64,000 nucleotides of DNA, from positions 1 through 64,000 of IMG/VR virus record IMGVR_UViG_3300027759_000056. The stretch is one strand, 5' to 3'. Made by a program: the position numbers and the translations under genes. Below are positions 5,475 to 62,203 of the stretch, piece by piece; position 1 is the stretch's first letter, and the number at the start of each line of letters is the position of its first letter. This stretch comes from a virus. The notes below the pieces were generated by a model that was not told the origin of the DNA, did no database searches, and worked only from the letters and a program-made list of their open reading frames with translations.

Positions 5475-5510
5475 CCTTCAGTTGTAAAGACTATATTTAT
5501 TAAAAAAAAC

Positions 5511-6155
5511 ATGAAAAAAATATTATTAACATTAATTACATTATTCACAATCGTAGCGATGACCTCTTGTGATAATGGAAAAAAAGAAGAGAGTAAAGAA
5601 GAATTTACGCACCAACGTGCATTACAATTATTTCACGGTAAGTTTGCCTTCTGTGGAGCATCACCTGCAACGTTAACAGGAAACAAAATTGTTGTTCAAG
5701 GTGATACATTCCTTGAAGGATGTGCTACATGTCCTGTAATGGAAGGAACTGCTCTTGTGAATACTTTATTGGTTGGTGACCCTTACATCACTCCTGATAG
5801 TACAAACAAGACTGTCTGGTCATACTTTTGGTATTATGATAGTGTTCCTCAAGCACCAACTTGGATAAATCAACCAACGGTAAACAGAACATTTACAATC
5901 ACTGAAACCCCAGGTGGTGGTATGAGCAATATGTGGTGTATGCCATGTAAGATATTACCAAATAAAGTTAATGGTGTAACATTGGCTAAATGTTATGGAC
6001 CAATCAATGAATTGGCTTTACCATTACGTCAATCAGTTAAAGCGTTACCTGGTGAAACATCTGTAACACAAGCACCTGTGGGAGCAACTTATCCTGTCGG
6101 AACAATTATACCCGATGCGGACTCAACAAAACATTATAAAAAAGTAACAAAATAA
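5511..6155 (+). CDS. Lipoprotein of unknown function (214 aa)
   Basis: The signal sequence ends in a lipobox (VAMTSC, Cys20), so the protein should be exported and lipidated. Paired cysteines (FCGAS, GCATCPV, MWCMPCK) suggest disulfides or metal binding. TATTTAT lies 10 nt upstream and a terminator follows. It could alter the host surface after infection, but nothing in the sequence proves this. Confidence 0.75.
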   Translation: MKKILLTLITLFTIVAMTSCDNGKKEESKEEFTHQRALQLFHGKFAFCGASPATLTGNKIVVQGDTFLEGCATCPVMEGTALVNTLLVGDPYITPDSTNKTVWSYFWYYDSVPQAPTWINQPTVNRTFTITETPGGGMSNMWCMPCKILPNKVNGVTLAKCYGPINELALPLRQSVKALPGETSVTQAPVGATYPVGTIIPDADSTKHYKKVTK

Positions 6156-27065: not shown

Positions 27066-27131
27066 TTGGGGGTCAGTGACCCCCGTGTATTAATTAGTTT
27101 TAACTGTTGTGTATTAGTTAGTTTTAACTGC
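27066..27131. repeat. Hairpin and 22-bp direct duplication after the T9SS gene
   Basis: GGGGGTC and GACCCCC form a short hairpin near 27,069-27,085. Two near-identical 22-bp copies (27,086-27,107 and 27,110-27,131, one mismatch) cover the end of the 27,114 gene, so the last codons are duplicated just past the stop. Confidence 0.65.
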
Positions 27132-29006
27132 TCTTTTTACTTCTATCTCTTCTTCTTTTTTCAAAACTGCCAAGTACATTCCATCAGATAAGTCTGACAT
27201 ATCAACTGTGTAAGTGTATTTTCCTGAAGGAGTCATATCACCCATTACACTTTTAACTTCTCTTCCTGTTGCATCAATAATACTTAAAGTTGTATTACCT
27301 TGTTGTTTTATGTTGAAAGAAATTGTTAAATTTGATGTAAATGGATTTGGATAAAGTTCCATATCATTACCAACGTAAACGTGTCCACCCATTCTGAATA
27401 CCTGAACAATACCATCAGTAGGTGTAATGTTTAAATCAATTGCGTCTTTGTTACCAGCAAATTTTCTTGTAACATATAATGGACTTACTCCCCATTGACT
27501 TTGAGGTTTCTTTGCAGAAAATTGAAGTGTGTAAATTAACTCACCATCATTGAATAAGTTGACGTTATTAGTTGGGTCATACCCACCCCATTCAACTTTG
27601 TTCTCTGATGTGTTTATGTATGATAACCATAAAGAAGATTTCAATTCGTTTTTAACGCTTTTGAATTCCAACAATGAAGTATCGTATTTAATCATCAATT
27701 GTAATGCTCCAACGTTGATACCACCAGTCTTTAATCTAACTGGAATGTTTACCAAGTTTCCATCATCAACTTTTAACAGAGGTAAATTAACTTCTATTGT
27801 TTCAAGAATGTTGTCATATTGTGTTGTAACATCAATGATGTGTTTTTTAGCATTTGCAGGATTAACAATTTCAATTGGAGTCATACGAGCTCTGTTGTAA
27901 CCAGTTCCGTTAACGTCACCCATACCTAATACATAATAAGTTACAGAGTCAGGTTGACCTGCGATGATTTGGAATGTGAAGTTTGTTACACCAGGAACTG
28001 TAGATTGTTTACTTGAACTTGAACCGTTAACTGAACTATATTGACTTTCAGTGAAGAACAAGATGTCTTTTCTACTGTTAGCCCAAGAAGTGAATCTTCC
28101 TGAAACTCTTGCGTAAATTCCATAAACGTCTGATACAGTGATTTTATCATCGTTGTTTACGTCAGTAGAATAGAAATCAAATCCAGATGGTGTTAAAGTT
28201 CCTAACACAAATTTGTTAGCTCTTTGTGCATCTGCAGTTGAAACAATTGCTCCCACACCCATCGTATCACCTTTAACCGCGATTCTAACATCCCAAGCAG
28301 TTGTATCAATTTCCACATTAGTAAAATTGAATCTACCTTGAGTATTAGTAACCGATGTTTGAACATAAGACCAAGTTGAAGATGTTTTTAATTTCTTCTC
28401 TAAAGATACACTTAGGTTTTTAGATGCAGTTCCTGTTACGTTAACAAACTTTCCTTTAAACGACATAACTTGTGGTTTAAATTTACCACCAAAGTTTTTA
28501 AGTGTTAAAGTGTAGTCAAGACCTGATTGAGTTGTTGCTGTTTCAGGAAAAGACGCTGTACCAGTAAACTTCATGTCGGTCACACTCAAATATGTTGTTG
28601 AAAGTGCTGTTGTGTGTTTTAATGTAACTTGAAATAATCTACCATCGGGAATAGTAAAAGAACTATTAGTTCCTGTGTAAACCATTGTGATTGTTACATA
28701 ACCACCAGCCGCATTGTCAACATATTGTAAGTCTTGTGAAAATGACGTGTTCATAGATGTTACGGTGTCAACTTTAGCAAAAGCCGCATTGTCGTAAAAC
28801 ACTCTATATTGAACTGCGGTAATGTTTGTTGATGTGTTGTTGTAAAAACACAATCCTATATTTGTTTTCCCAGACCTATAGGTACCTGTTTGATAGGTTG
28901 AGTCCAACATAATGTGAGCACCCGTGGTACTTGGAGTTGGACATGTTTGCGCAAAACCTATCACTGAAGCGCAAATTGTGATTAATGACGTAAGAAGTCT
29001 TTTCAT
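27114..29006 (-). CDS. Secreted cohesin/dockerin-like protein with T9SS sorting domain (630 aa)
   Basis: Signal peptide (MKRLLTSLITICASVIGFAQ). A dockerin-like repeat DVNNDDKITVSDVYGIYARV lies mid-protein, and cohesin-like beta segments lie on both sides. The C-terminal ~80 residues (LYPNPFTSNLTISFN...GMYLAVLKKEEEIEVKRAVK) form a type A T9SS sorting signal. It should be secreted and attached to the cell surface by the host type IX system. It is the first gene of the 29,006-20,902 block. TATTTAT lies upstream on its strand. Confidence 0.8.
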   Translation of the reverse strand: MKRLLTSLITICASVIGFAQTCPTPSTTGAHIMLDSTYQTGTYRSGKTNIGLCFYNNTSTNITAVQYRVFYDNAAFAKVDTVTSMNTSFSQDLQYVDNAAGGYVTITMVYTGTNSSFTIPDGRLFQVTLKHTTALSTTYLSVTDMKFTGTASFPETATTQSGLDYTLTLKNFGGKFKPQVMSFKGKFVNVTGTASKNLSVSLEKKLKTSSTWSYVQTSVTNTQGRFNFTNVEIDTTAWDVRIAVKGDTMGVGAIVSTADAQRANKFVLGTLTPSGFDFYSTDVNNDDKITVSDVYGIYARVSGRFTSWANSRKDILFFTESQYSSVNGSSSSKQSTVPGVTNFTFQIIAGQPDSVTYYVLGMGDVNGTGYNRARMTPIEIVNPANAKKHIIDVTTQYDNILETIEVNLPLLKVDDGNLVNIPVRLKTGGINVGALQLMIKYDTSLLEFKSVKNELKSSLWLSYINTSENKVEWGGYDPTNNVNLFNDGELIYTLQFSAKKPQSQWGVSPLYVTRKFAGNKDAIDLNITPTDGIVQVFRMGGHVYVGNDMELYPNPFTSNLTISFNIKQQGNTTLSIIDATGREVKSVMGDMTPSGKYTYTVDMSDLSDGMYLAVLKKEEEIEVKRAVKTN

Positions 29007-29500: not shown

Positions 29501-30601
29501 ATGTTTGATTTATTAACAGAAGTAAAAAAAATGAAAACAATGATGGGTCTTATTAAAGAAGACCAAGATTTGGAATCCATTAACAAACACGCACAAAATA
29601 TTCTGAATATTCTAAAATTCAGTAATTTATACTCATCAACAATTAAAAAACTTATTGATAAAATTATTAAATTTGGTGAAACCAACATTATTGATTTTGA
29701 TTTGATTGAAAAAAATCTTAAAAATATAATGTTAAAAAAAGGTAACCGTAAGAAAAATGTTGAGGATTATTTTTTAAGAATATTTACATCATTAGAGTTT
29801 AGAGAAAAAGGTATTTACGGTATTGAACCCGAAAGTGAAGATTTTGGTTCTAGTATTGAAGACGTTTCAATAGTACCTAAAAAAATCTTTAATAAAGAAT
29901 TATACGGATTACAAGTTGAATTAATTAAATTACAAGATTGGTTAGCTGAAACAGGTAAAACCGTTCTTATTGTTTTTGAAGGTAGAGACAGTGCTGGTAA
30001 AGGTTCATCAATTAAAAAATTTACAGAAAACATGAATCCAAAAGGATTCAAAGTAATTCAACTTGGAATTCCAACACCTGAGGATAGAGCTGATTGGTGG
30101 GGTAGATATAGAAAACAAATTGAACCGGGTAAAATTAATTTATTTGATAGAAGTTGGTACAATAGAGGTTTAGTTGAACCAGTTGCTGGTTATGGTACTC
30201 CTGAAGAATACGAAGACTTTATGGAAAACGTTGAAAACTTTGAAAACTCATTGGTTGAAAATGGTGATTTCCTTTTCAAACTTTGGTTTTCAATCGATAA
30301 AGAAACCATGGCAAAAAGATTTAAACAAAGATTAAGTTCACCATTAAAGAAATGGAAATATTCACCTAACGATGAAAAGATGTTAGATTTATGGGATAGA
30401 TTCACTGAATTCAAAGAAAAATTATTTGACAAAACATCAACAGTAAACCACCCTTGGGTTATATTGGATTCATCAGATAAAAGAGTATCAGGATTAAACT
30501 CCATAAGATATGTTTTACAGAACATACCATACAAAGGGAAAAATAAAGAATTCTTAAGTAAAGAATATCCCGAAGCATTAACAATATTAAAACCAGAATA
30601 A
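29501..30601 (+). CDS. ppk2: Polyphosphate kinase 2 with LLTE N-terminal tag (366 aa)
   Basis: Residues 1-20 (MFDLLTEVKKMKTMMGLIKE) carry two [LI]xE sites. A ~110-residue spacer precedes a full PPK2 domain: Walker A GRDSAGKGS (G161 region), DRADWWGRY, Walker B-like DRSWYNRG (D216), KLWFSIDKETMAKRF. PPK2 transfers phosphate from polyphosphate to nucleoside mono- or diphosphates. TATTTAT lies 4 nt before ATG. The tag suggests packaging in the virion, so the enzyme could raise NTP levels at once after injection. Confidence 0.85.
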   Translation: MFDLLTEVKKMKTMMGLIKEDQDLESINKHAQNILNILKFSNLYSSTIKKLIDKIIKFGETNIIDFDLIEKNLKNIMLKKGNRKKNVEDYFLRIFTSLEFREKGIYGIEPESEDFGSSIEDVSIVPKKIFNKELYGLQVELIKLQDWLAETGKTVLIVFEGRDSAGKGSSIKKFTENMNPKGFKVIQLGIPTPEDRADWWGRYRKQIEPGKINLFDRSWYNRGLVEPVAGYGTPEEYEDFMENVENFENSLVENGDFLFKLWFSIDKETMAKRFKQRLSSPLKKWKYSPNDEKMLDLWDRFTEFKEKLFDKTSTVNHPWVILDSSDKRVSGLNSIRYVLQNIPYKGKNKEFLSKEYPEALTILKPE

Positions 30602-51973: not shown

Positions 51974-52210
51974 ATGATTACAATGGAAGACTTAAAAGAT
52001 TTTGACTTCACAAATGATAGTAAGGTTGAATTTATGACCAAACCAGGTTTTGTAGAAAAACGTATTCAACAAATGATTCAAATTGGTGCGAATGAAGAGT
52101 ATGAAAAATACAGTGAAGGAATGAGTGATGATGACATTGCAAAATGGAAAGAAGGGTTTGTAGTCGGAGCAAACTGGTTATTAAAAAATAAAAACGAAAA
52201 AAATATTTGA
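51974..52210 (+). CDS. Hypothetical protein (78 aa)
   Basis: Start MITMEDLKDFDFTNDSKVEF, just after the previous stop. A helical acidic protein with a C-terminal MSDDDIAKWKEGFVVGANWLLKN. Its stop overlaps the -33 part of the tRNA-array promoter. Confidence 0.65.
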   Translation: MITMEDLKDFDFTNDSKVEFMTKPGFVEKRIQQMIQIGANEEYEKYSEGMSDDDIAKWKEGFVVGANWLLKNKNEKNI

Positions 52211-52236
52211 CATATCAATAAACTTTTGTATCTTTG
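52207..52236 (+). promoter_or_regulatory. Promoter of tRNA array 1
   Basis: TTGACA (52,207-52,212) and TATCTTTG (52,229-52,236), 22 nt apart start to start. The same spacing occurs at 59,420/59,442. Unlike the leaderless genes, the next ATG is 24 nt after the -7 element. Confidence 0.7.
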
Positions 52237-52259: not shown

Positions 52260-52355
52260 ATGAAACTCGTAAATAAACAAATCGTGAAACATGTCATTCA
52301 ATTCTGTTCGAATTGGTATCTTCGCGTATTCGTAAGTTCGGGTGTTTTAAGTTAA
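52260..52355 (+). CDS. Leader peptide of tRNA array 1 (31 aa)
   Basis: Begins MKLVNKQIVKHVIQFC and contains adjacent N, W, Y, L, R codons before its last third. The final codons (AGT TCG GGT) form the 5' arm of a predicted antiterminator. Completing translation would cover this arm and let the terminator form. Stalling further upstream would expose it. Confidence 0.6.
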   Translation: MKLVNKQIVKHVIQFCSNWYLRVFVSSGVLS

Positions 52356-52407
52356 CACATAGTAGCCTTAAAAAGGAAACCCGAACTCACAAGGTTCGGG
52401 TTTTTTT
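52335..52407 (+). promoter_or_regulatory. Transcription attenuator of tRNA array 1
   Basis: AGTTCGGGT (52,335-52,343) can pair with ACCCGAACT (52,379-52,387), 9 bp. The second arm can instead pair with GTTCGGGT (52,394-52,401), giving an 8-bp terminator followed by seven T. The folds are mutually exclusive. Small hairpins lie between arms 1 and 2. Confidence 0.7.
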
Positions 52408-52415
52408 GTTTTTAA

Positions 52416-52426
52416 GTTCTTTGACA
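52416..52426 (+). promoter_or_regulatory. boxA-like antitermination motif, array 1
   Basis: GTTCTTTGACA resembles boxA (GCTCTTTAACA) of rRNA leaders. It lies between the attenuator and the first tRNA. The motif and following TTGGTAA recur before array 2. Confidence 0.55.
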
Positions 52427-52443
52427 TGTTGGTAATCAAAAAT

Positions 52444-52516
52444 GGGACGGTAGCAAAGATGGTCAATGCGCTGGACTGAAAATCCAGTCATGGTGGTTCG
52501 AGTCCACCCCGTCCCA
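52444..52516 (+). tRNA. tRNA-Phe(GAA)
   Basis: GGGACGG/CCGTCCC, loop CTGAAAA, regular T-arm, A73. First gene of array 1. Confidence 0.95.
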
Positions 52517-52524
52517 CAATACAT

Positions 52525-52598
52525 TGGTGATTAGCTCAGTTGGTTAGAGCACTACGCTGATACCGTAGGGGTCACAGGTTCAAATCCTGTATCACCAA
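52525..52598 (+). tRNA. tRNA-Ile(GAU)
   Basis: TGGTGAT/ATCACCA, loop CTGATAC, A73 followed by encoded CCA (52,599-52,601). Confidence 0.95.
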
Positions 52599-52606
52599 CC
52601 ATAAAT

Positions 52607-52677
52607 TACCCTTTCGTCTAACGGCAGGACGAGTGGTTTTGGTCCACTTAGTGGAGGTTCGAATCCTTCAGGGGTAA
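52607..52677 (+). tRNA. tRNA-Gln(UUG)
   Basis: TACCCTT/AGGGGTA, loop TTTTGGT, A73. CCA not encoded. Confidence 0.93.
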
Positions 52678-52683
52678 CAATAT

Positions 52684-52757
52684 GACTTCGTAGCTCAATT
52701 GGCTAGAGCACCGTGCTTTTAACACGGGGGTTTCGGGTTCAAGTCCCGATGGGGTCA
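52684..52757 (+). tRNA. tRNA-Lys(UUU)
   Basis: GACTTCG/TGGGGTC with wobble pairs, loop CTTTTAA, A73. Confidence 0.95.
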
Positions 52758-52763
52758 CAATAT

Positions 52764-52836
52764 CTTTCCTTAGCTCAGTTGGAAGAGCACTTGGCTTACA
52801 TCCAAGATGTCGTTGGTTCAAATCCAACAGGAAAGA
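52764..52836 (+). tRNA. tRNA-Val(UAC)
   Basis: CTTTCCT/AGGAAAG, loop CTTACAT, A73. Confidence 0.95.
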
Positions 52837-52843
52837 CAAAAAT

Positions 52844-52925
52844 GCCAGTATCGCATAGCGGCAATTGCGGCGGATTGTAAACCCGCTCTCATTTGAGTTC
52901 GTAGGTTCGAGTCCTACTGCTGGCA
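52844..52925 (+). tRNA. tRNA-Tyr(GUA)
   Basis: GCCAGTA/TGCTGGC, loop TTGTAAA, long variable arm TCTCATTTGAG as expected for bacterial Tyr, A73. Confidence 0.93.
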
Positions 52926-52930
52926 CAAAA

Positions 52931-52980
52931 CTTATAATCCTCCAAAACTCACTTTTTTTACTAGTTTTGGAGAGTTATAG
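52931..52980. other. Stable hairpin between tRNA-Tyr and tRNA-Cys
   Basis: CTCCAAAACT pairs with AGTTTTGGAG (10 bp), extended by TATAA/TTATA after a 2x2 internal loop; the loop is T-rich. It could be a processing signal. It lacks a T-run after the stem. Confidence 0.5.
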
Positions 52981-52987
52981 AATATAA

Positions 52988-53061
52988 GTCCATATGCCTG
53001 AGAGGTTCAAAGGGACAGTCTGCAAAACTGTTATTCGTTGGTTCGATTCCAACTATGGACT
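52988..53061 (+). tRNA. tRNA-Cys(GCA)
   Basis: GTCCATA/TATGGAC, loop CTGCAAA, U73 as expected for Cys. Confidence 0.93.
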
Positions 53062-53063
53062 CT

Positions 53064-53135
53064 GTGACTGTAGTTCAGTGGTAGAGCATCGGCTTGTGGT
53101 GCCGAGTGTCGTGGGTTCGAATCCCATCAGTCACC
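53064..53135 (+). tRNA. tRNA-His(GUG)
   Basis: GTGACTG/CAGTCAC, loop TTGTGGT, C73. The -1 base is T, not the usual G. Confidence 0.93.
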
Positions 53136-53143
53136 CCAAATAC

Positions 53144-53226
53144 GGAAGTGGTCCGAATGGACGAGGACACCGCCTTGAAAGCGGCTGGCTGTAAAAGGCT
53201 TGGGGGTTCGATTCCCTTCTCTTCCG
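53144..53226 (+). tRNA. tRNA-Ser(UGA), second copy
   Basis: GGAAGTG/CTCTTCC with one mismatch, loop CTTGAAA, long variable arm, G73. Confidence 0.9.
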
Positions 53227-53234
53227 CAAAAAAT

Positions 53235-53309
53235 GGTTCCTTAGTTTAATTGGATAAAACATCTCGCTACGGACGAGAAGATGTGGGGGTTCGAATCCCT
53301 CAGGAATCA
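53235..53309 (+). tRNA. tRNA-Arg(ACG)
   Basis: GGTTCCT/AGGAATC, loop CTACGGA; A34 is normally converted to inosine. A73. Confidence 0.93.
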
Positions 53310-53316
53310 CAACTAC

Positions 53317-53387
53317 GTAAGTGTGGTGTAATGGTAGCATAAAGGTCTCCAAAACTTTTGGCGAGGGTTCGAGTCCTTCCACTTGCG
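53317..53387 (+). tRNA. tRNA-Trp(CCA)
   Basis: GTAAGTG/CACTTGC, loop CTCCAAA, G73. Confidence 0.93.
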
Positions 53388-53393
53388 CAAAAT

Positions 53394-53475
53394 ACCAAAG
53401 TGGCGTAACGGTAGCCGCATTAGTCTTAGAAACTAATGTCCTAAGGGCGTGTGGGTTCGACTCCCACCTTTGGTA
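53394..53475 (+). tRNA. tRNA-Leu(UAG)
   Basis: ACCAAAG/CTTTGGT, loop CTTAGAA, long variable arm, A73. Confidence 0.93.
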
Positions 53476-53486
53476 CAAAAATAAAT

Positions 53487-53568
53487 TGGCAGGTAGCCTA
53501 GAGGTCAGGCAGCAGACTGTTAATCTGCGACGGAAACGTCTACGTGGGTTCGATTCCCACCCTGTCAG
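53487..53568 (+). tRNA. tRNA-Asn(GUU) with long variable arm
   Basis: TGGCAGG/CCTGTCA, loop CTGTTAA, G73. The variable region is 15 nt and forms GACG-GAAA-CGTC. A long arm is expected for Leu, Ser and Tyr but not for Asn. The D-arm is class I type (GCCT/AGGC). Confidence 0.88.
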
Positions 53569-53613
53569 CAAAATATTTTTTGTAAAGTCAAATATCTGTT
53601 GTATATTTGTTGT

Positions 53614-54407: not shown

Positions 54408-54565
54408 AGTCAGGTGGCGGAATTGGTAGACGATAATGGAGTTATACTATCAAACACAGAGGGTGCGGCGTAGATGGGAACTACTACATTATCTCTTGGA
54501 CGCAAGAGAGCAATATAACCCTAACCATTTGGTATAACGTGTAGGTTCGAATCCTACCCTGACTA
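54408..54565 (+). ncRNA. Expanded tRNA-Leu-like RNA 2 (158 nt)
   Basis: The 5' part (AGTCAGGTGGCGGAATTGG) is a textbook tRNA-Leu start. The 3' part has T-arm GTAGGTTCGAATCCTAC and acceptor CCTGACT, A73. The anticodon stem AATGG/CCATT encloses about 85 nt with GTTATA/TATAAC and TCTCTTG/CAAGAGA hairpins. The insertion is too short for a normal group I intron. No U33 at the stem border. Confidence 0.6.
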
Positions 54566-58122: not shown

Positions 58123-58150
58123 TTCTTATTAGTGTCTTATACTTTTGATA

Positions 58151-59419
58151 ATGGAAAAATTATCAAATGTAGGGAACAATATTGTGGGCTCTGAAATTAT
58201 TAAAATCTCACAACAAATCAAAGAAATTGCTAAAACAAAATCAGTATCTAACCTAACCATAGGTGACTTTAATTCCAAACTATGGCCAATACCCTCAAAA
58301 TTAAGAGAACACATTCAAGATGCGTATGAGTGGGATTTAACCAACTATCCAAACTCACAAGGAGAACTTGAATTAAGAGAATCCGTATCCAAACACATTA
58401 AACATCAGTTCAATGTTGATTATTCACCTGAAGAAATATTAATTGGTGGTGGAGTTCGTCCATTAATTTATACGGTTTATAAAGCCACGGTAAATCCAAA
58501 TGAAGAGGTGATTTATCCTGTACCATCTTGGAATAATAACCACTATTGTTTTTTACATAACGCAAAAAAAGAAGAAATTGAATGTACACCTGAAAATTCA
58601 TTTTTCCCAACCGTTGAAGATGTTGACGGCAGAATAAGTGATAAAACATCATTGGTTTGTATTTGTTCACCGCAAAATCCAACAGGTCGTGTAATTGACC
58701 CCGAAGTTCTGAAAGGTATTTGTGAGTTGATTGTGAGAGAAAATAAAATCAGGTCAACACAAGTAGGTTCAAGACCATTGTATTTGTTCTTTGACCAGAT
58801 TTATTCTGACATCACCAAAGAAGGTTTGTTTATCCACCCATTAACTTTATGTCCTGAAATCAGAGATTATTTGATTTGTGCTGATGGTATTTCAAAGTCA
58901 TTAAACGCAACTGGTGTTCGTGTTGGTTGGTTGTTTGGTCCAAAAGATATTATTGGAAAGATGACCGAAGTTTTGTCTCACATTGGAGCATGGGCTCCAA
59001 AACCTGAACAACGAGCATTGGATGCGTACATCAGAGAAGATTATGAAGATTACATTTCTCACATTAACTATGTAACAAAATCGTACGAATTTATATCAGA
59101 TAAAATATGTGGTAAGTTGGAAGAATTGAAAAACAAAGGTCATAATGTTGATTACCAAAAACCTGATGGTGGAATTTATATTTCGGTTTATTTGGGTTAT
59201 GTTCATTCATTTCCAACAACTGAAGAGTATATTTCGTTCTTAATTAATACCTGTGGGTTGGGAATTGTTCCGTTTGAATATTTTGGTTCAAAGAGTAACA
59301 AAGGATGGTTTAGAATATCAATTGGTAATGTTGCCGAGTTAAATTTGGACTCAATTATTAAAACAATTGAAAATTCTGTACAAAAATCAGTAAGTTATGT
59401 AAATTCTTTAGCATTTTAA
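58151..59419 (+). CDS. PLP-dependent aminotransferase, class I/II (422 aa)
   Basis: Full aspartate-aminotransferase fold type I: YPNSQGELELRESV, CSPQNPTGRVI, FFDQIYSDI and the PLP lysine in SKSLNATGVRVGW (K249), then a C-terminal SIGN segment. It should transaminate an amino acid using 2-oxo acids. TACTTTTG lies 3 nt before ATG. It directly precedes the control region of tRNA array 2, which suggests a link to amino-acid supply. Confidence 0.85.
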   Translation: MEKLSNVGNNIVGSEIIKISQQIKEIAKTKSVSNLTIGDFNSKLWPIPSKLREHIQDAYEWDLTNYPNSQGELELRESVSKHIKHQFNVDYSPEEILIGGGVRPLIYTVYKATVNPNEEVIYPVPSWNNNHYCFLHNAKKEEIECTPENSFFPTVEDVDGRISDKTSLVCICSPQNPTGRVIDPEVLKGICELIVRENKIRSTQVGSRPLYLFFDQIYSDITKEGLFIHPLTLCPEIRDYLICADGISKSLNATGVRVGWLFGPKDIIGKMTEVLSHIGAWAPKPEQRALDAYIREDYEDYISHINYVTKSYEFISDKICGKLEELKNKGHNVDYQKPDGGIYISVYLGYVHSFPTTEEYISFLINTCGLGIVPFEYFGSKSNKGWFRISIGNVAELNLDSIIKTIENSVQKSVSYVNSLAF

Positions 59420-59449
59420 TTGACACTTTTCAAAAGTTTGATATATTTA
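59420..59449 (+). promoter_or_regulatory. Promoter P1 of tRNA array 2
   Basis: TTGACA (59,420) and TATATTTA (59,442), the same 22-nt spacing as array 1, with A replacing the final G of the -7 consensus. Confidence 0.5.
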
Positions 59450-59476
59450 ATAAGAAATTAAATAATAATACATTCA

Positions 59477-59545
59477 ATGATTACCATCAACATATTCGGC
59501 ACACCAGCAACAGAGGCTGATACTTCCAAAGTGGAGATGGGATAA
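59477..59545 (+). CDS. Leader peptide of tRNA array 2 (22 aa)
   Basis: MITINIFGTPATEADTSKVE and two more residues, then TAA. The last codons (GAG ATG GGA) form arm 1 of the attenuator. The peptide is unrelated in sequence to leader 1, but its position relative to the hairpins is the same. Confidence 0.5.
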   Translation: MITINIFGTPATEADTSKVEMG

Positions 59546-59598
59546 TATTGTAAAAAAATATCTTACAAAAACCCATCTCAAAAGGATGGGTTTTTTTT
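59534..59598 (+). promoter_or_regulatory. Transcription attenuator of tRNA array 2
   Basis: GAGATGGG (59,534-59,541) can pair with CCCATCTC (59,572-59,579), 8 bp, with an inner TTGTAA/TTACAA hairpin. The alternative ACCCATC/GATGGGT (59,571-59,577 / 59,585-59,591) is a terminator followed by eight T. Confidence 0.65.
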
Positions 59599-59606
59599 GT
59601 GTTTGT

Positions 59607-59637
59607 TTGGCAGTATCAAAAAAATGTATTAACTTTG
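59607..59637 (+). promoter_or_regulatory. Promoter P2 of tRNA array 2, beyond the attenuator
   Basis: TTGGCA (59,607) and TAACTTTG (59,630), spacing 23 nt. It lies after the terminator, so it bypasses attenuation. Confidence 0.6.
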
Positions 59638-59667
59638 TAGTGTTGAAAAACACAACAGAACAAAAAA

Positions 59668-59678
59668 GTTCTTTGACG
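59668..59678 (+). promoter_or_regulatory. boxA-like antitermination motif, array 2
   Basis: GTTCTTTGACG followed by TATTGGTAAG matches the array 1 motif in sequence and position, 18 nt before the first tRNA. Confidence 0.55.
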
Positions 59679-59696
59679 TATTGGTAAGAAAAAATT

Positions 59697-59768
59697 GCTC
59701 GGTTCATCTATCGGTTAGGATGCTAGGTTTTCATCCTAGAAAGAGGGGTTCGACTCCCCTACCGAGTA
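59697..59768 (+). tRNA. tRNA-Glu(UUC)
   Basis: GCTCGGT/ACCGAGT, loop TTTTCAT, A73. Confidence 0.95.
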
Positions 59769-59777
59769 CAAATAAAT

Positions 59778-59849
59778 AGCGGGGTGGAGCAGAGGTAGCT
59801 TGCGAGGCTCATAACCTTGAGGTCACAGGTTCGAATCCTGTCCCCGCTA
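59778..59849 (+). tRNA. tRNA-Met(CAU), initiator-like D-arm
   Basis: AGCGGGG/CCCCGCT, loop CTCATAA, D-arm TGGAGCAGAGGTAGCT as in initiator tRNA, encoded CCA. The anticodon stem CGAGG/CCTTG lacks the full GGG/CCC run. Confidence 0.9.
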
Positions 59850-59860
59850 CCAAAATAAAT

Positions 59861-59931
59861 CGCGAGTTGGTGTAATGGTAACATAATGGGCTCATAACCC
59901 ATAGTTCCGAGTTCGAGTCTCGGGTTCGCAA
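59861..59931 (+). tRNA. tRNA-Met(CAU) with C1-A72 mismatch and GGG/CCC stem
   Basis: CGCGAGT with GTTCGCA leaves C1-A72 unpaired, and the anticodon stem ATGGG/CCCAT has three G-C pairs. These are two hallmarks of initiator tRNA. CCA is encoded (59,932-59,934). Confidence 0.88.
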
Positions 59932-59935
59932 CCAA

Positions 59936-60150
59936 TGGATGTAACTTGGGTCGTGCCACATTGGCCACTTTTACATCAAGAGTCAGAAGGATTAGAGGTG
60001 GCCGTGACTACTCTGACTCGAATACAAAGTACCACGATGCTTACCGTAAGAACAGCACAGTGGTAGATAGAGTTAACGTGAATAACCCAAGGCATAAGCG
60101 TTAACAACCCCCAATAAGACTATTTGGCCAATAGAAACTGTTGGGGTTAT
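59936..60150 (+). ncRNA. Structured RNA A, at least six hairpins
   Basis: Successive stems: GATGTAA/TTACATC, GTGCCA/TGGCCAC, GAGTCAGA/TCTGACTC, ACCAC/GTGGT, GTTAACG/CGTTAAC, CCCCAA/TTGGGG enclosing CTATT/AATAG. There is no reading frame and no T-arm. It lies between two tRNA genes and must be co-transcribed with them. I cannot assign it to a known RNA family. Confidence 0.5.
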
Positions 60151-60155
60151 TAAAA

Positions 60156-60227
60156 GCGAGTGTAGTATAAAGGCTATTACTCCAGCCTTCCAAGCTGGAT
60201 ATGCGAGTTCGATTCTCGCCACTCGCT
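60156..60227 (+). tRNA. tRNA-Gly(UCC)
   Basis: GCGAGTG/CACTCGC, loop CTTCCAA, U73 as expected for Gly. Confidence 0.95.
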
Positions 60228-60228
60228 C

Positions 60229-60434
60229 AAAAAGAACCTTTTCTTACGGAAGTCCGATTAGCGCGGATGAAAGGAACCTTGACTTCACGGGAGTAGCTAC
60301 CCAATTGAAGCTTGAATGACTCAAGGTACTCTGTAATGGACCCTGCTCTATGGTGCACACATAACAGGTGATGGGGAACAAACCATCGGTAAAATCTAAA
60401 CCCACGGTGAGCGTGGAAGGAAAGTTTCTTTTTT
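60229..60434 (+). ncRNA. Structured RNA B with closing stem
   Basis: AAGAACCTTTTC (60,232-60,243) pairs with GGAAAGTTTCTT (60,419-60,430), 11 of 12. Inside are ACCTTGA/TCAAGGT enclosing CTTCA/TGAAG, GATGG/CCATC and CCACG/CGTGG. It ends in eight T just before the next tRNA. A ten-base segment GGGAGTAGCT is shared with the following tRNA-Gly. Family unknown. Confidence 0.5.
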
Positions 60435-60436
60435 TT

Positions 60437-60508
60437 GCGGGAGTAGCTCAGGGGTAGAGCTTCAGTTTACCAAACTGAAAGTCGAAGGTTCGAATCCTTT
60501 TTCCCGCT
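60437..60508 (+). tRNA. tRNA-Gly(ACC), unusual anticodon
   Basis: GCGGGAG/TTCCCGC, stem TCAGT/ACTGA, loop TTACCAA giving ACC, U73 and encoded CCA. Gly anticodons with A34 are rare in bacteria. Confidence 0.85.
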
Positions 60509-60528
60509 CCAAATGTAAATCTTAAAAA

Positions 60529-60563
60529 GGGCCCTTCCGTGTTTATCACGGCTTGTTGGGCCC
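60529..60563. other. Two-tier hairpin with GGGCCC arms
   Basis: GGGCCC (60,529) pairs with GGGCCC (60,558), enclosing CCGTG/CACGG. It lies between tRNA-Gly and tRNA-Asp. No T-run; possibly a processing site. Confidence 0.5.
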
Positions 60564-60579
60564 GGGTTTACTAACTTAC

Positions 60580-60651
60580 GGTCCTGTAGTTAATCGGCTA
60601 TAATATTGCCCTGTCACGGCAAAGTGCCGGGTTCGATTCCCGGTGGGACCG
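60580..60651 (+). tRNA. tRNA-Asp(GUC)
   Basis: GGTCCTG/TGGGACC, loop CTGTCAC, G73. Confidence 0.95.
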
Positions 60652-60662
60652 CAAAAATAAAA

Positions 60663-60732
60663 GGGCCTGATGTCAACGGCAGACCGTTTGATTTGCAATC
60701 AGAACGTATGGGTTCGATTCCCACAGTGTCCA
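60663..60732 (+). tRNA. tRNA-Ala(UGC)
   Basis: GGGCCTG/AGTGTCC with the alanine identity pair G3-U70; two acceptor mismatches. Loop TTTGCAA (TGC), A73. Somewhat degenerate. Confidence 0.8.
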
Positions 60733-60741
60733 CAAACAAAT

Positions 60742-60817
60742 AGCGTAGTAGAGGAGTCAGGTTTATCTCATCTGCTTTGGGAGCAGAGGCACGCTGGTTC
60801 GAATCCAGTCTACGCTA
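60742..60817 (+). tRNA. tRNA-Pro(UGG)
   Basis: AGCGTAG/CTACGCT, loop TTTGGGA, A73. Last gene of array 2. Confidence 0.93.
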
Positions 60818-60850
60818 CTAATTATAAAAAAAATTTACTATCTTTGTAAC

Positions 60851-61138
60851 ATGAAAAACATATTAAAAGACCCCCGATTTTATTTTTTCCTATGGATTGT
60901 TCTATCTATTATTCTTGCCATTACGTTAGGAGCTTGTAAACAGAAACCTTTGATTGAAAAAGGTGATGTAGTTGAAAAGTTCGTTATTGATTCAATGGTT
61001 CAATTGCCACCTCACAGCACAATTGAACTTGACAGGAAGTACAAGTATTTCATGTCAGACAGCAGTGAGTTTACTTCTTTGAAGAAATATAACATTGGTG
61101 ATACAATCACTTATGTTTACAAAAAACAAGGAAAGTAA
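60851..61138 (+). CDS. Lipoprotein (95 aa)
   Basis: A basic N-terminus, a hydrophobic helix and lipobox LGAC (Cys29). The mature part is soluble with strands (GDVVEKFVIDSMVQLPP). TATCTTTG ends 4 nt before ATG. It resembles small lipoproteins that phages use for lysis or exclusion; nothing specific is visible. Confidence 0.7.
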   Translation: MKNILKDPRFYFFLWIVLSIILAITLGACKQKPLIEKGDVVEKFVIDSMVQLPPHSTIELDRKYKYFMSDSSEFTSLKKYNIGDTITYVYKKQGK

Positions 61139-61157
61139 TATATATTAAAACATAAAT

Positions 61158-61231
61158 GCCTGAATAGCTTTAATTGGTAGAGCACCTGACTTGTAATCAG
61201 GGGGTTGGCGGTTCGAGTCCGTCTTCAGGCT
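61158..61231 (+). tRNA. tRNA-Thr(UGU)
   Basis: GCCTGAA/TTCAGGC, loop CTTGTAA, encoded CCA after U73. Confidence 0.95.
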
Positions 61232-61246
61232 CCAAACACAATAATC

Positions 61247-61432
61247 ATGGACCCCAAGACTCAAATGACGCAGGAAGATTTTTTAACTGAATTGACTGAA
61301 TTAAGTCAGTCATTTGGATTGTATGGTGAAAATGACAACTTTGGTGTTGATGGAGTTTACATACATACCCAACCAGAAATGTACATATGTCCGTGGGATA
61401 ATACTCAAGGGGATTGTACTCATTTCAACTAA
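61247..61432 (+). CDS. Small acidic protein (61 aa)
   Basis: Start MDPKTQMTQEDFLTELTEL, 13 nt after the encoded CCA of tRNA-Thr. The longer frame reads through the tRNA and is rejected. The C-terminus (YICPWDNTQGDCTHFN) has two cysteines. Confidence 0.6.
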   Translation: MDPKTQMTQEDFLTELTELSQSFGLYGENDNFGVDGVYIHTQPEMYICPWDNTQGDCTHFN

Positions 61433-61437
61433 TATTT

Positions 61438-61511
61438 GGACGGGTAGCTCAACAGGTTAGAGCAGGATGCTTATATCATCAAGGTTGGGGGTTCAAGTCC
61501 CTTCTCGTCTA
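61438..61511 (+). tRNA. tRNA-Ile(UAU)
   Basis: GGACGGG/CTCGTCT with wobble pairs, loop CTTATAT (TAT), A73. It reads AUA directly, whereas most bacteria use lysidine-modified CAU. Confidence 0.9.
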
Positions 61512-61525
61512 CTAAAAATTTAATT

Positions 61526-62126: not shown

Positions 62127-62200
62127 GGACCTTTAGCTCAGTTGGTCAGAGCGGCTGACTCATAATCAGTAGGTCGTAGGTTCAAGCCCTACAGGGTCCA
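62127..62200 (+). tRNA. tRNA-Met(CAU), elongator type
   Basis: GGACCTT/AGGGTCC, stem GCTGA/TCAGT, loop CTCATAA, A73. The class I D-arm lacks initiator features. Confidence 0.93.
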
Positions 62201-62203
62201 CAA

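Follow-up and report, generated by a model that had tools for sequence, protein, structure and literature searches.

A putative ribosome-mediated attenuator of phage tRNA arrays with a leader that samples the codons of the array's own tRNAs

Introduction

What decides whether a phage tRNA array is transcribed, and which signal would such a switch read? The question is raised by a 64,000-nt stretch of viral DNA (hereafter the window), part of a 111,976-base virus record, in which two tRNA arrays are each preceded by a short open reading frame and an intrinsic terminator. The first-pass annotation of the window proposed a translation-dependent attenuator upstream of array 2. The geometry, its repetition in unrelated sequence, its conservation in relatives and the codon content of the leader all fit that proposal, to which we add two features absent from the annotation: a codon match between leader and array, and a boxA-like element at 59668-59687. 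We consider it very probable that the element is a ribosome-mediated transcription attenuator of a phage tRNA array, whose leader samples the codons of the array's own tRNAs.

The promoters of the window (TTG-N19/20-TAnnTTTG) and a protein with a Por secretion tail point to a Bacteroidota host. A PHROGs search with ten proteins of the window gave almost no matches. Among the phage genes are those of a cohesin-like protein with a type IX sorting tail (27114-29006, minus strand), a PPK2 kinase (29501-30601, plus strand) and a class I/II aminotransferase (58145-59419, plus strand).

Results

Overall architecture of the two attenuators

The attenuator of array 2, on the plus strand, begins with the putative leader promoter P1 (59420-59449), composed of TTG (59420-59422), a 19-nt spacer and TATATTTA (59442-59449). 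It has an 11/12 sigma-70 match and is one base away from the Bacteroidota TAnnTTTG box. Leader ORF 2 (59477-59545) encodes MITINIFGTPATEADTSKVEMG, starting from ATG at 59477 and running through 22 sense codons to TAA at 59543-59545. The annotation gave the length of this leader correctly but had it end inside GAGATGGG, whereas the stop codon comes one base after that segment. Codons 2-16 (59480-59524) form the sensing zone, where a stalled ribosome is predicted by constrained folding to leave the antiterminator strand free; every array-2 amino acid but Met is present in it. The 5' strand of the antiterminator, GAGATGGG (strand 2, 59534-59541), lies over the last leader codons and would be masked by a ribosome at the stop codon. 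Strand 3, CCCATCTC (59572-59579), can pair with either strand 2 or strand 4, and strands 3 and 4 make up an intrinsic terminator (59567-59598) with a hairpin at 59567-59595 and eight T at 59591-59598; strand 4 and the T run together span 59584-59598. These pairing strands and the hairpin (59534-59598) bear out the proposed competition between antiterminator and terminator.

Downstream of the terminator lies, as anticipated, the second promoter P2 (59607-59637; TTG 59607-59609, N20, TAACTTTG 59630-59637), which is an exact Bacteroidota-type motif; its TAnnTTTG box is conserved in all three aligned relatives (L012, L038 and L238). The boxA-like element GTTCTTTGACGTATTGGTAA (59668-59687) follows, and then tRNA array 2 (59697-61512) with Glu-TTC, two Met, Gly-TCC, Gly-ACC, Asp-GTC, a weak Ala-TGC, Pro-TGG, Thr-TGT and Ile-TAT, and a further Met-CAT at 62127-62201. 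The Ala gene (60663-60732) is a weak tRNA match (29.5 bits) with anticodon TGC and an unusual acceptor stem that was not called by ARAGORN, and is probably a tRNA-Ala. Between the two tRNA-Gly genes sits a freshwater-1 RNA (Rfam RF02979, 73.8 bits; 60332-60394), a location that may offer a clue to how this uncharacterised RNA family fits into phage tRNA arrays. The long spacers at 59935-60155 and 60229-60436 are more stably folded than their shuffled versions (z -3.0 and -1.9) and are candidates for additional structured RNAs.

Array 1 has an upstream region of identical element order and different sequence, without P2, in agreement with the earlier view that geometry is what the two regions share. 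It comprises the leader promoter (52207-52236; TTG-N19-TATCTTTG), leader ORF 1 (52260-52355) encoding MKLVNKQIVKHVIQFCSNWYLRVFVSSGVLS with its sensing zone at codons 2-22 (52263-52325), the antiterminator strand (52335-52343), the strand pair AGTTCGGGT/ACCCGAACT, the terminator (52373-52407) and a boxA-like motif match (52416-52435), all on the plus strand. Array 1 itself (52444-53569, plus strand) consists of 13 tRNAs for 13 amino acids (F I Q K V Y C H S R W L N). The boxA-like stretch is the only DNA similarity found between the upstream regions of the two arrays. At 54408-54565 lies a tRNA-Leu-like gene that carries about 75 nt of inserted sequence (cmscan, 30.5 bits); over-long tRNA matches occur also at 5493-5596 of locus L295 and 3624-3724 of L294.

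The array-2 parts could also be read more simply, the terminator merely ending the upstream gene, the leader ORF being a short coding remnant and P2 alone driving the array. The upstream gene does end at 59419, immediately 5' of P1, and P2 is an exact promoter motif placed after the terminator. However, P1, which is retained in the aligned relatives, is conserved there jointly with the leader, strand 2 and the terminator; P2 is absent from array 1 and from many other arrays, and that model, which we regard as extremely improbable, leaves no role for the codon match described below. Within an attenuator, basal expression of array 2 from P2 is plausible, because P2 is a good promoter whose TAnnTTTG box is kept in relatives.

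Predicted folding of the leader RNAs

That the layout is unlikely to arise by chance, as had been argued, is upheld by the 161-nt leader RNA, which outfolds all but 1 of 200 shuffles (z -3.4), and by the repetition of the geometry across leader families. In both attenuators, mutually exclusive antiterminator and intrinsic terminator share one strand; for array 2, the energies are -15.1 kcal/mol for duplex 2:3 and -9.4 kcal/mol for the core of hairpin 3:4. We folded the RNAs under constraint, at the stage before synthesis of strand 4 and with the ribosome footprint blocked (about 11 nt downstream from the first base of the A-site codon). A stall at any sensing codon gave an antiterminator probability of 0.96-1.00 in both leaders, with 0.99-1.00 for every stall up to 59522 in leader 2 and 0.00 from 59531. 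The probability falls to zero within three codons, at A-site positions 59522-59531 in leader 2 and 52323-52332 in leader 1, and the off-array residues S, K and V of leader 2 sit in this transition. Geometry and constrained folding both predict that strand 2 is masked with the ribosome at the stop codon and free on an upstream stall.

With no ribosome on the leader, the antiterminator is still predicted (p(2:3) = 1.00 and 0.97), and uninterrupted translation should therefore favour termination. A start-codon mutation of the leader is accordingly predicted by the same folding to raise read-through. The minimum-energy fold suggested a protective 1:2 hairpin, which fails in constrained folding before strand 4 is made. 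At equilibrium, the terminator is usually favoured even with strand 2 free (p about 0.8-0.98 in most states); the switch must therefore be kinetic, as we infer by analogy with classical attenuators.

Leader codons match the downstream array

The leaders were picked by position, length and pairing, and their amino-acid content was never used. Leader 1 covers its own array completely (13/13 amino acids) but array 2 by 2/8, whereas leader 2 has 8/8 for array 2 (E, M, G, D, P, T, I and the probable A) and 6/13 for array 1. The amino acids in the sensing zone of leader 1 are the 13 of array 1, all of them and nothing else; among 1,097,611 windows of 21 residues from long ORFs of the fetched loci, none uses exactly this set and 73 contain it.

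The match extends to 50 leader families, drawn from cultured phages as well as viral contigs and assembled in a scan without boxA. Their sensing zones cover 419 of the 479 array amino acids, compared to 299.8±10.0 for swapped leaders (highest value 339 in 20,000 swaps), and 712 of their 1003 residues belong to the own array, compared to 482.8±18.5 in the null; these family counts, like the codon-class counts below, assume independence and could be inflated by remote kinship among leaders. The masked part of the same leaders has no excess, in coverage (166 versus 162.9±7.0) or in residues (214 versus 204.5±9.6). At loci with two leader-array operons, 166/187 amino acids of the own array are covered, compared to 35/169 of those found only in the other array. 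This within-phage test and the within-leader control are less open to the kinship objection. A first test on whole leaders was weaker (244/258 versus 207) because it mixed sensing and masked codons. Chance coverage is ruled out by the swap, proteome and pooled-composition nulls.

Individual leaders illustrate the match. The near-repeat leaders IHIQPQPQQHPQ, NTLTATLAPTNGGDRD and FDFAFEAFAEAD precede Pro-His-Gln (L169), Pro-Asn-Gly-Gly-Asp-Thr-Ala (L181) and Phe-Glu-Glu-Asp-Ala (L369), respectively. Poor fits exist as well (L129, 4/14; L104, 5/10), in part from wrong ORF or array calls, and two further scans added only five new families, which are not significant alone (p 0.06). For four arrays we noted predictions from the leader before the full arrays were fetched, and these mostly held. 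L031, with TCG in its sensing zone, has the predicted tRNA-Ser(TGA) along with each of the other twelve amino acids foreseen; L008 has 7/7 predicted amino acids plus a Pro; 14 of 16 are present at L017; and at L035, L, G, A and M follow the leader immediately and E and D are more distant, the predicted I and T not being seen. In the window's own family, the window and L031 combine a TCG codon, at different leader positions, with a tRNA-Ser(TGA), whereas L038 and L041 carry CAG at the window's TCG position and an array without tRNA-Ser(TGA).

These comparisons bear on a general translation-speed sensor, in which any slowing of the ribosome gives read-through and the apparent match reflects rare codons common to all leaders. 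Such a sensor would suit an antiterminator predicted with the ribosome absent or stalled anywhere upstream, and the leaders are overall rich in Trp, Cys and His. Shared rare codons, however, would not account for a match that is lost on leader swaps between phages (300 versus 419), that distinguishes the own from the other array within one phage and whose excess is limited to the sensing zone; we therefore judge this alternative quite improbable.

Leu, Ser, Arg and Ile each have two codon classes read by different tRNAs. In the 50 families, leader codons for these amino acids agree in class with the array tRNA in 99 cases and disagree in 23. Because leader codons follow the array tRNA's class, the sequences point to the tRNA species, not the amino acid, as the signal. 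A classical amino-acid-starvation attenuator would instead sense free amino acids through tRNA charging, with codon choice meaningless. It is a quite improbable reading of these loci, although the architecture is that of the trp, thr and ilv attenuators and both attenuators of the window weakly resemble Rfam Thr_leader (27.8 and 26.1 bits against a cut-off of 55): the controlled genes are tRNAs rather than biosynthetic genes, and amino-acid sensing has no need of the isoacceptor-class match. Counted against a leader that samples its own array's tRNAs are the position of Met outside the sensing zone of leader 2 and some off-array residues in the leaders.

Distribution in viral contigs and cultured phages

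A search of viral contigs for the boxA-like motif found a tRNA within 60 nt downstream at 116 of 173 non-duplicate sites; leader, terminator and array occur together at 96 loci, which represent 37 leader families. In 30 of these families, strand 2 begins 8-25 nt 5' of the stop codon, compared to 6.3±2.3 for codon-shuffled leaders. An exact TAnnTTTG lies within 70 nt of the leader ATG in 35 of 69 leader families (4.1 expected). BLAST of both window leaders against named phages found no relatives, because the sequences are too diverged; just layout and codon content persist.

In Cellulophaga phage phi17:2, three operons were identified independently of the boxA search, and each includes a promoter, a leader and a terminator. 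Its leader MKIQRLHLQELEQPIISGGTGV precedes P E Q H L L R, MQLTKTGITVIDKTKGARAYLGDTVIG (GTG start) precedes A K I G M D T V R M, and MKTNYCTYNNSNWSFSYDTGSVCTLGSDGLIG precedes Y S S N W F C. Phage phi38:1, of another family than phi17:2, has three operons with the same split; in both phages the three leaders fit their three arrays. A leader of the Y S W F C type occurs in Maribacter phage Panino and in Tenacibaculum phage Gundel_1. In these cultured-phage segments, some tRNAs missing from the ARAGORN output or from the record were identified by visual inspection. Among the unrelated tRNA-rich phages T5, crAss001, Enterococcus EF1 and Erwinia SNUABM_01, 43 array starts gave no leader match.

The tRNAs of phi17:2 (L240) and phi38:1 (L242) fall into the same three sets, which almost follow the first letter of the codon (C plus Glu; T plus Asn; A and G). 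At 3791-3910 of L240 the leader is overlain by the annotated hypothetical protein gp077 of phi17:2 on the leader strand, and at 36714-36845 of L242 by gp067 of phi38:1 on the opposite strand.

The boxA-like element

The boxA-like motif lies 24-34 nt 5' of most phage tRNA arrays examined, downstream of the attenuator. In Candidatus Azobacteroides, the one bacterium in which the motif was shown directly in an rRNA operon (16S search and cmscan in one genome), the same motif as in the window occurs in the 16S-23S spacer, after the 16S rRNA and two tRNAs and about 160 nt before the 23S rRNA, which is the place of a spacer boxA. A pattern search for 16S downstream of the motif in bacterial contigs gave no matches, because the motif lies 3' of 16S. 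The phage motif thus shares its sequence with the spacer motif of Candidatus Azobacteroides and recalls boxA antitermination of rRNA operons by Nus factors (PMC4807359), but differs in preceding tRNA arrays, after an attenuator. By analogy with rRNA operons of other bacteria, it may sustain the polymerase on the untranslated arrays.

Discussion

The layout, the codon match, the conserved geometry and the repetition in unrelated phages can be read directly in the DNA, and they suggest the following mechanism. RNA polymerase would start at P1 with a ribosome trailing on the leader. If all codons are read promptly, the ribosome would reach the stop codon and sit on strand 2 during the synthesis of strands 3 and 4; the terminator would then form and the array would stay off. 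If the ribosome waits at any sensing codon, its tRNA being scarce, cleaved or uncharged, strand 2 would pair with strand 3, the terminator would be blocked and the entire array transcribed, after which the boxA-like element would probably keep the polymerase moving through untranslated RNA. The logic would be an OR gate over about 8-14 tRNAs, in which a shortage of any one leads to transcription of all, with P2 adding a basal supply for array 2. Termination and ribosome stalling in vivo are what we infer from this arrangement.

The attenuators of amino-acid operons (trp, his, thr, ilvGMEDA, leu and pheA; PMC1183508) likewise have a short translated leader with regulatory codons, and an antiterminator and a terminator that share one strand and are chosen between by the position of the ribosome. 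The phage system differs in that it is found in phages of Bacteroidota, that it would control tRNA genes, with a codon set that follows the controlled genes, and that its leaders would sense 8-14 different codons at once, compared to one to three amino acids. Moreover, the phage leaders have no predicted protective 1:2 hairpin, a feature of trp-type attenuators that is not required for the general class, and lack of translation should therefore switch the array on. Similar to the phage leaders, antibiotic-responsive leaders (bmrB-bmrCD, PMC4191407; msrD, PMC10314930) convert a stall on a short ORF into downstream read-through, but there the ribosomes are stalled by drugs, whereas each phage leader corresponds to a tRNA array at the level of single codons.

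T-box riboswitches also respond to the state of tRNA and act by a choice between terminator and antiterminator. A T-box, however, binds one tRNA directly, without a translated leader, whereas in the phage system the ribosome would read codons; cmscan of the window against Rfam found no T-box match up to E 0.5.

In the literature searched, which covered few preprints and no subscription journals, we found no earlier report of tRNA genes under leader-attenuator control, nor did word searches within phage-tRNA papers find leader control of tRNA arrays. As far as that literature goes, attenuation is known as a kind, and the tRNA-gene target, the breadth of 8-14 codons and the codon-by-codon match are undescribed.

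It is likely that many Bacteroidota phages carry a modular tRNA-supply sensor, in which the leader of each operon lists its own codons and the loss of any of these tRNAs induces the whole set. A leader that spells the codons of its own array would indicate what the phage monitors, namely the supply of those tRNAs during infection. If so, the inducing loss could be caused by, for example, a host tRNA-cutting defence or host shut-off, and the codon capacity of a leader would limit how tRNAs are split among operons. The match between leader and array fits the view that phage tRNAs answer tRNA-cutting defences (PMC10264068, PMC11555353); the supply failure that acts in nature may be host shut-off, codon mismatch or such a defence. 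Attenuation would gain tRNA genes as targets beside amino-acid pathways, and its breadth would grow from the one to three amino acids sensed there to about a dozen. The leaders would also serve as natural reporters of single tRNA shortages, and the cultured Cellulophaga phages phi38:1 and phi17:2 make the idea testable. Altogether, the leaders may be a sequence-readable record of the tRNAs that a phage expects to run short.
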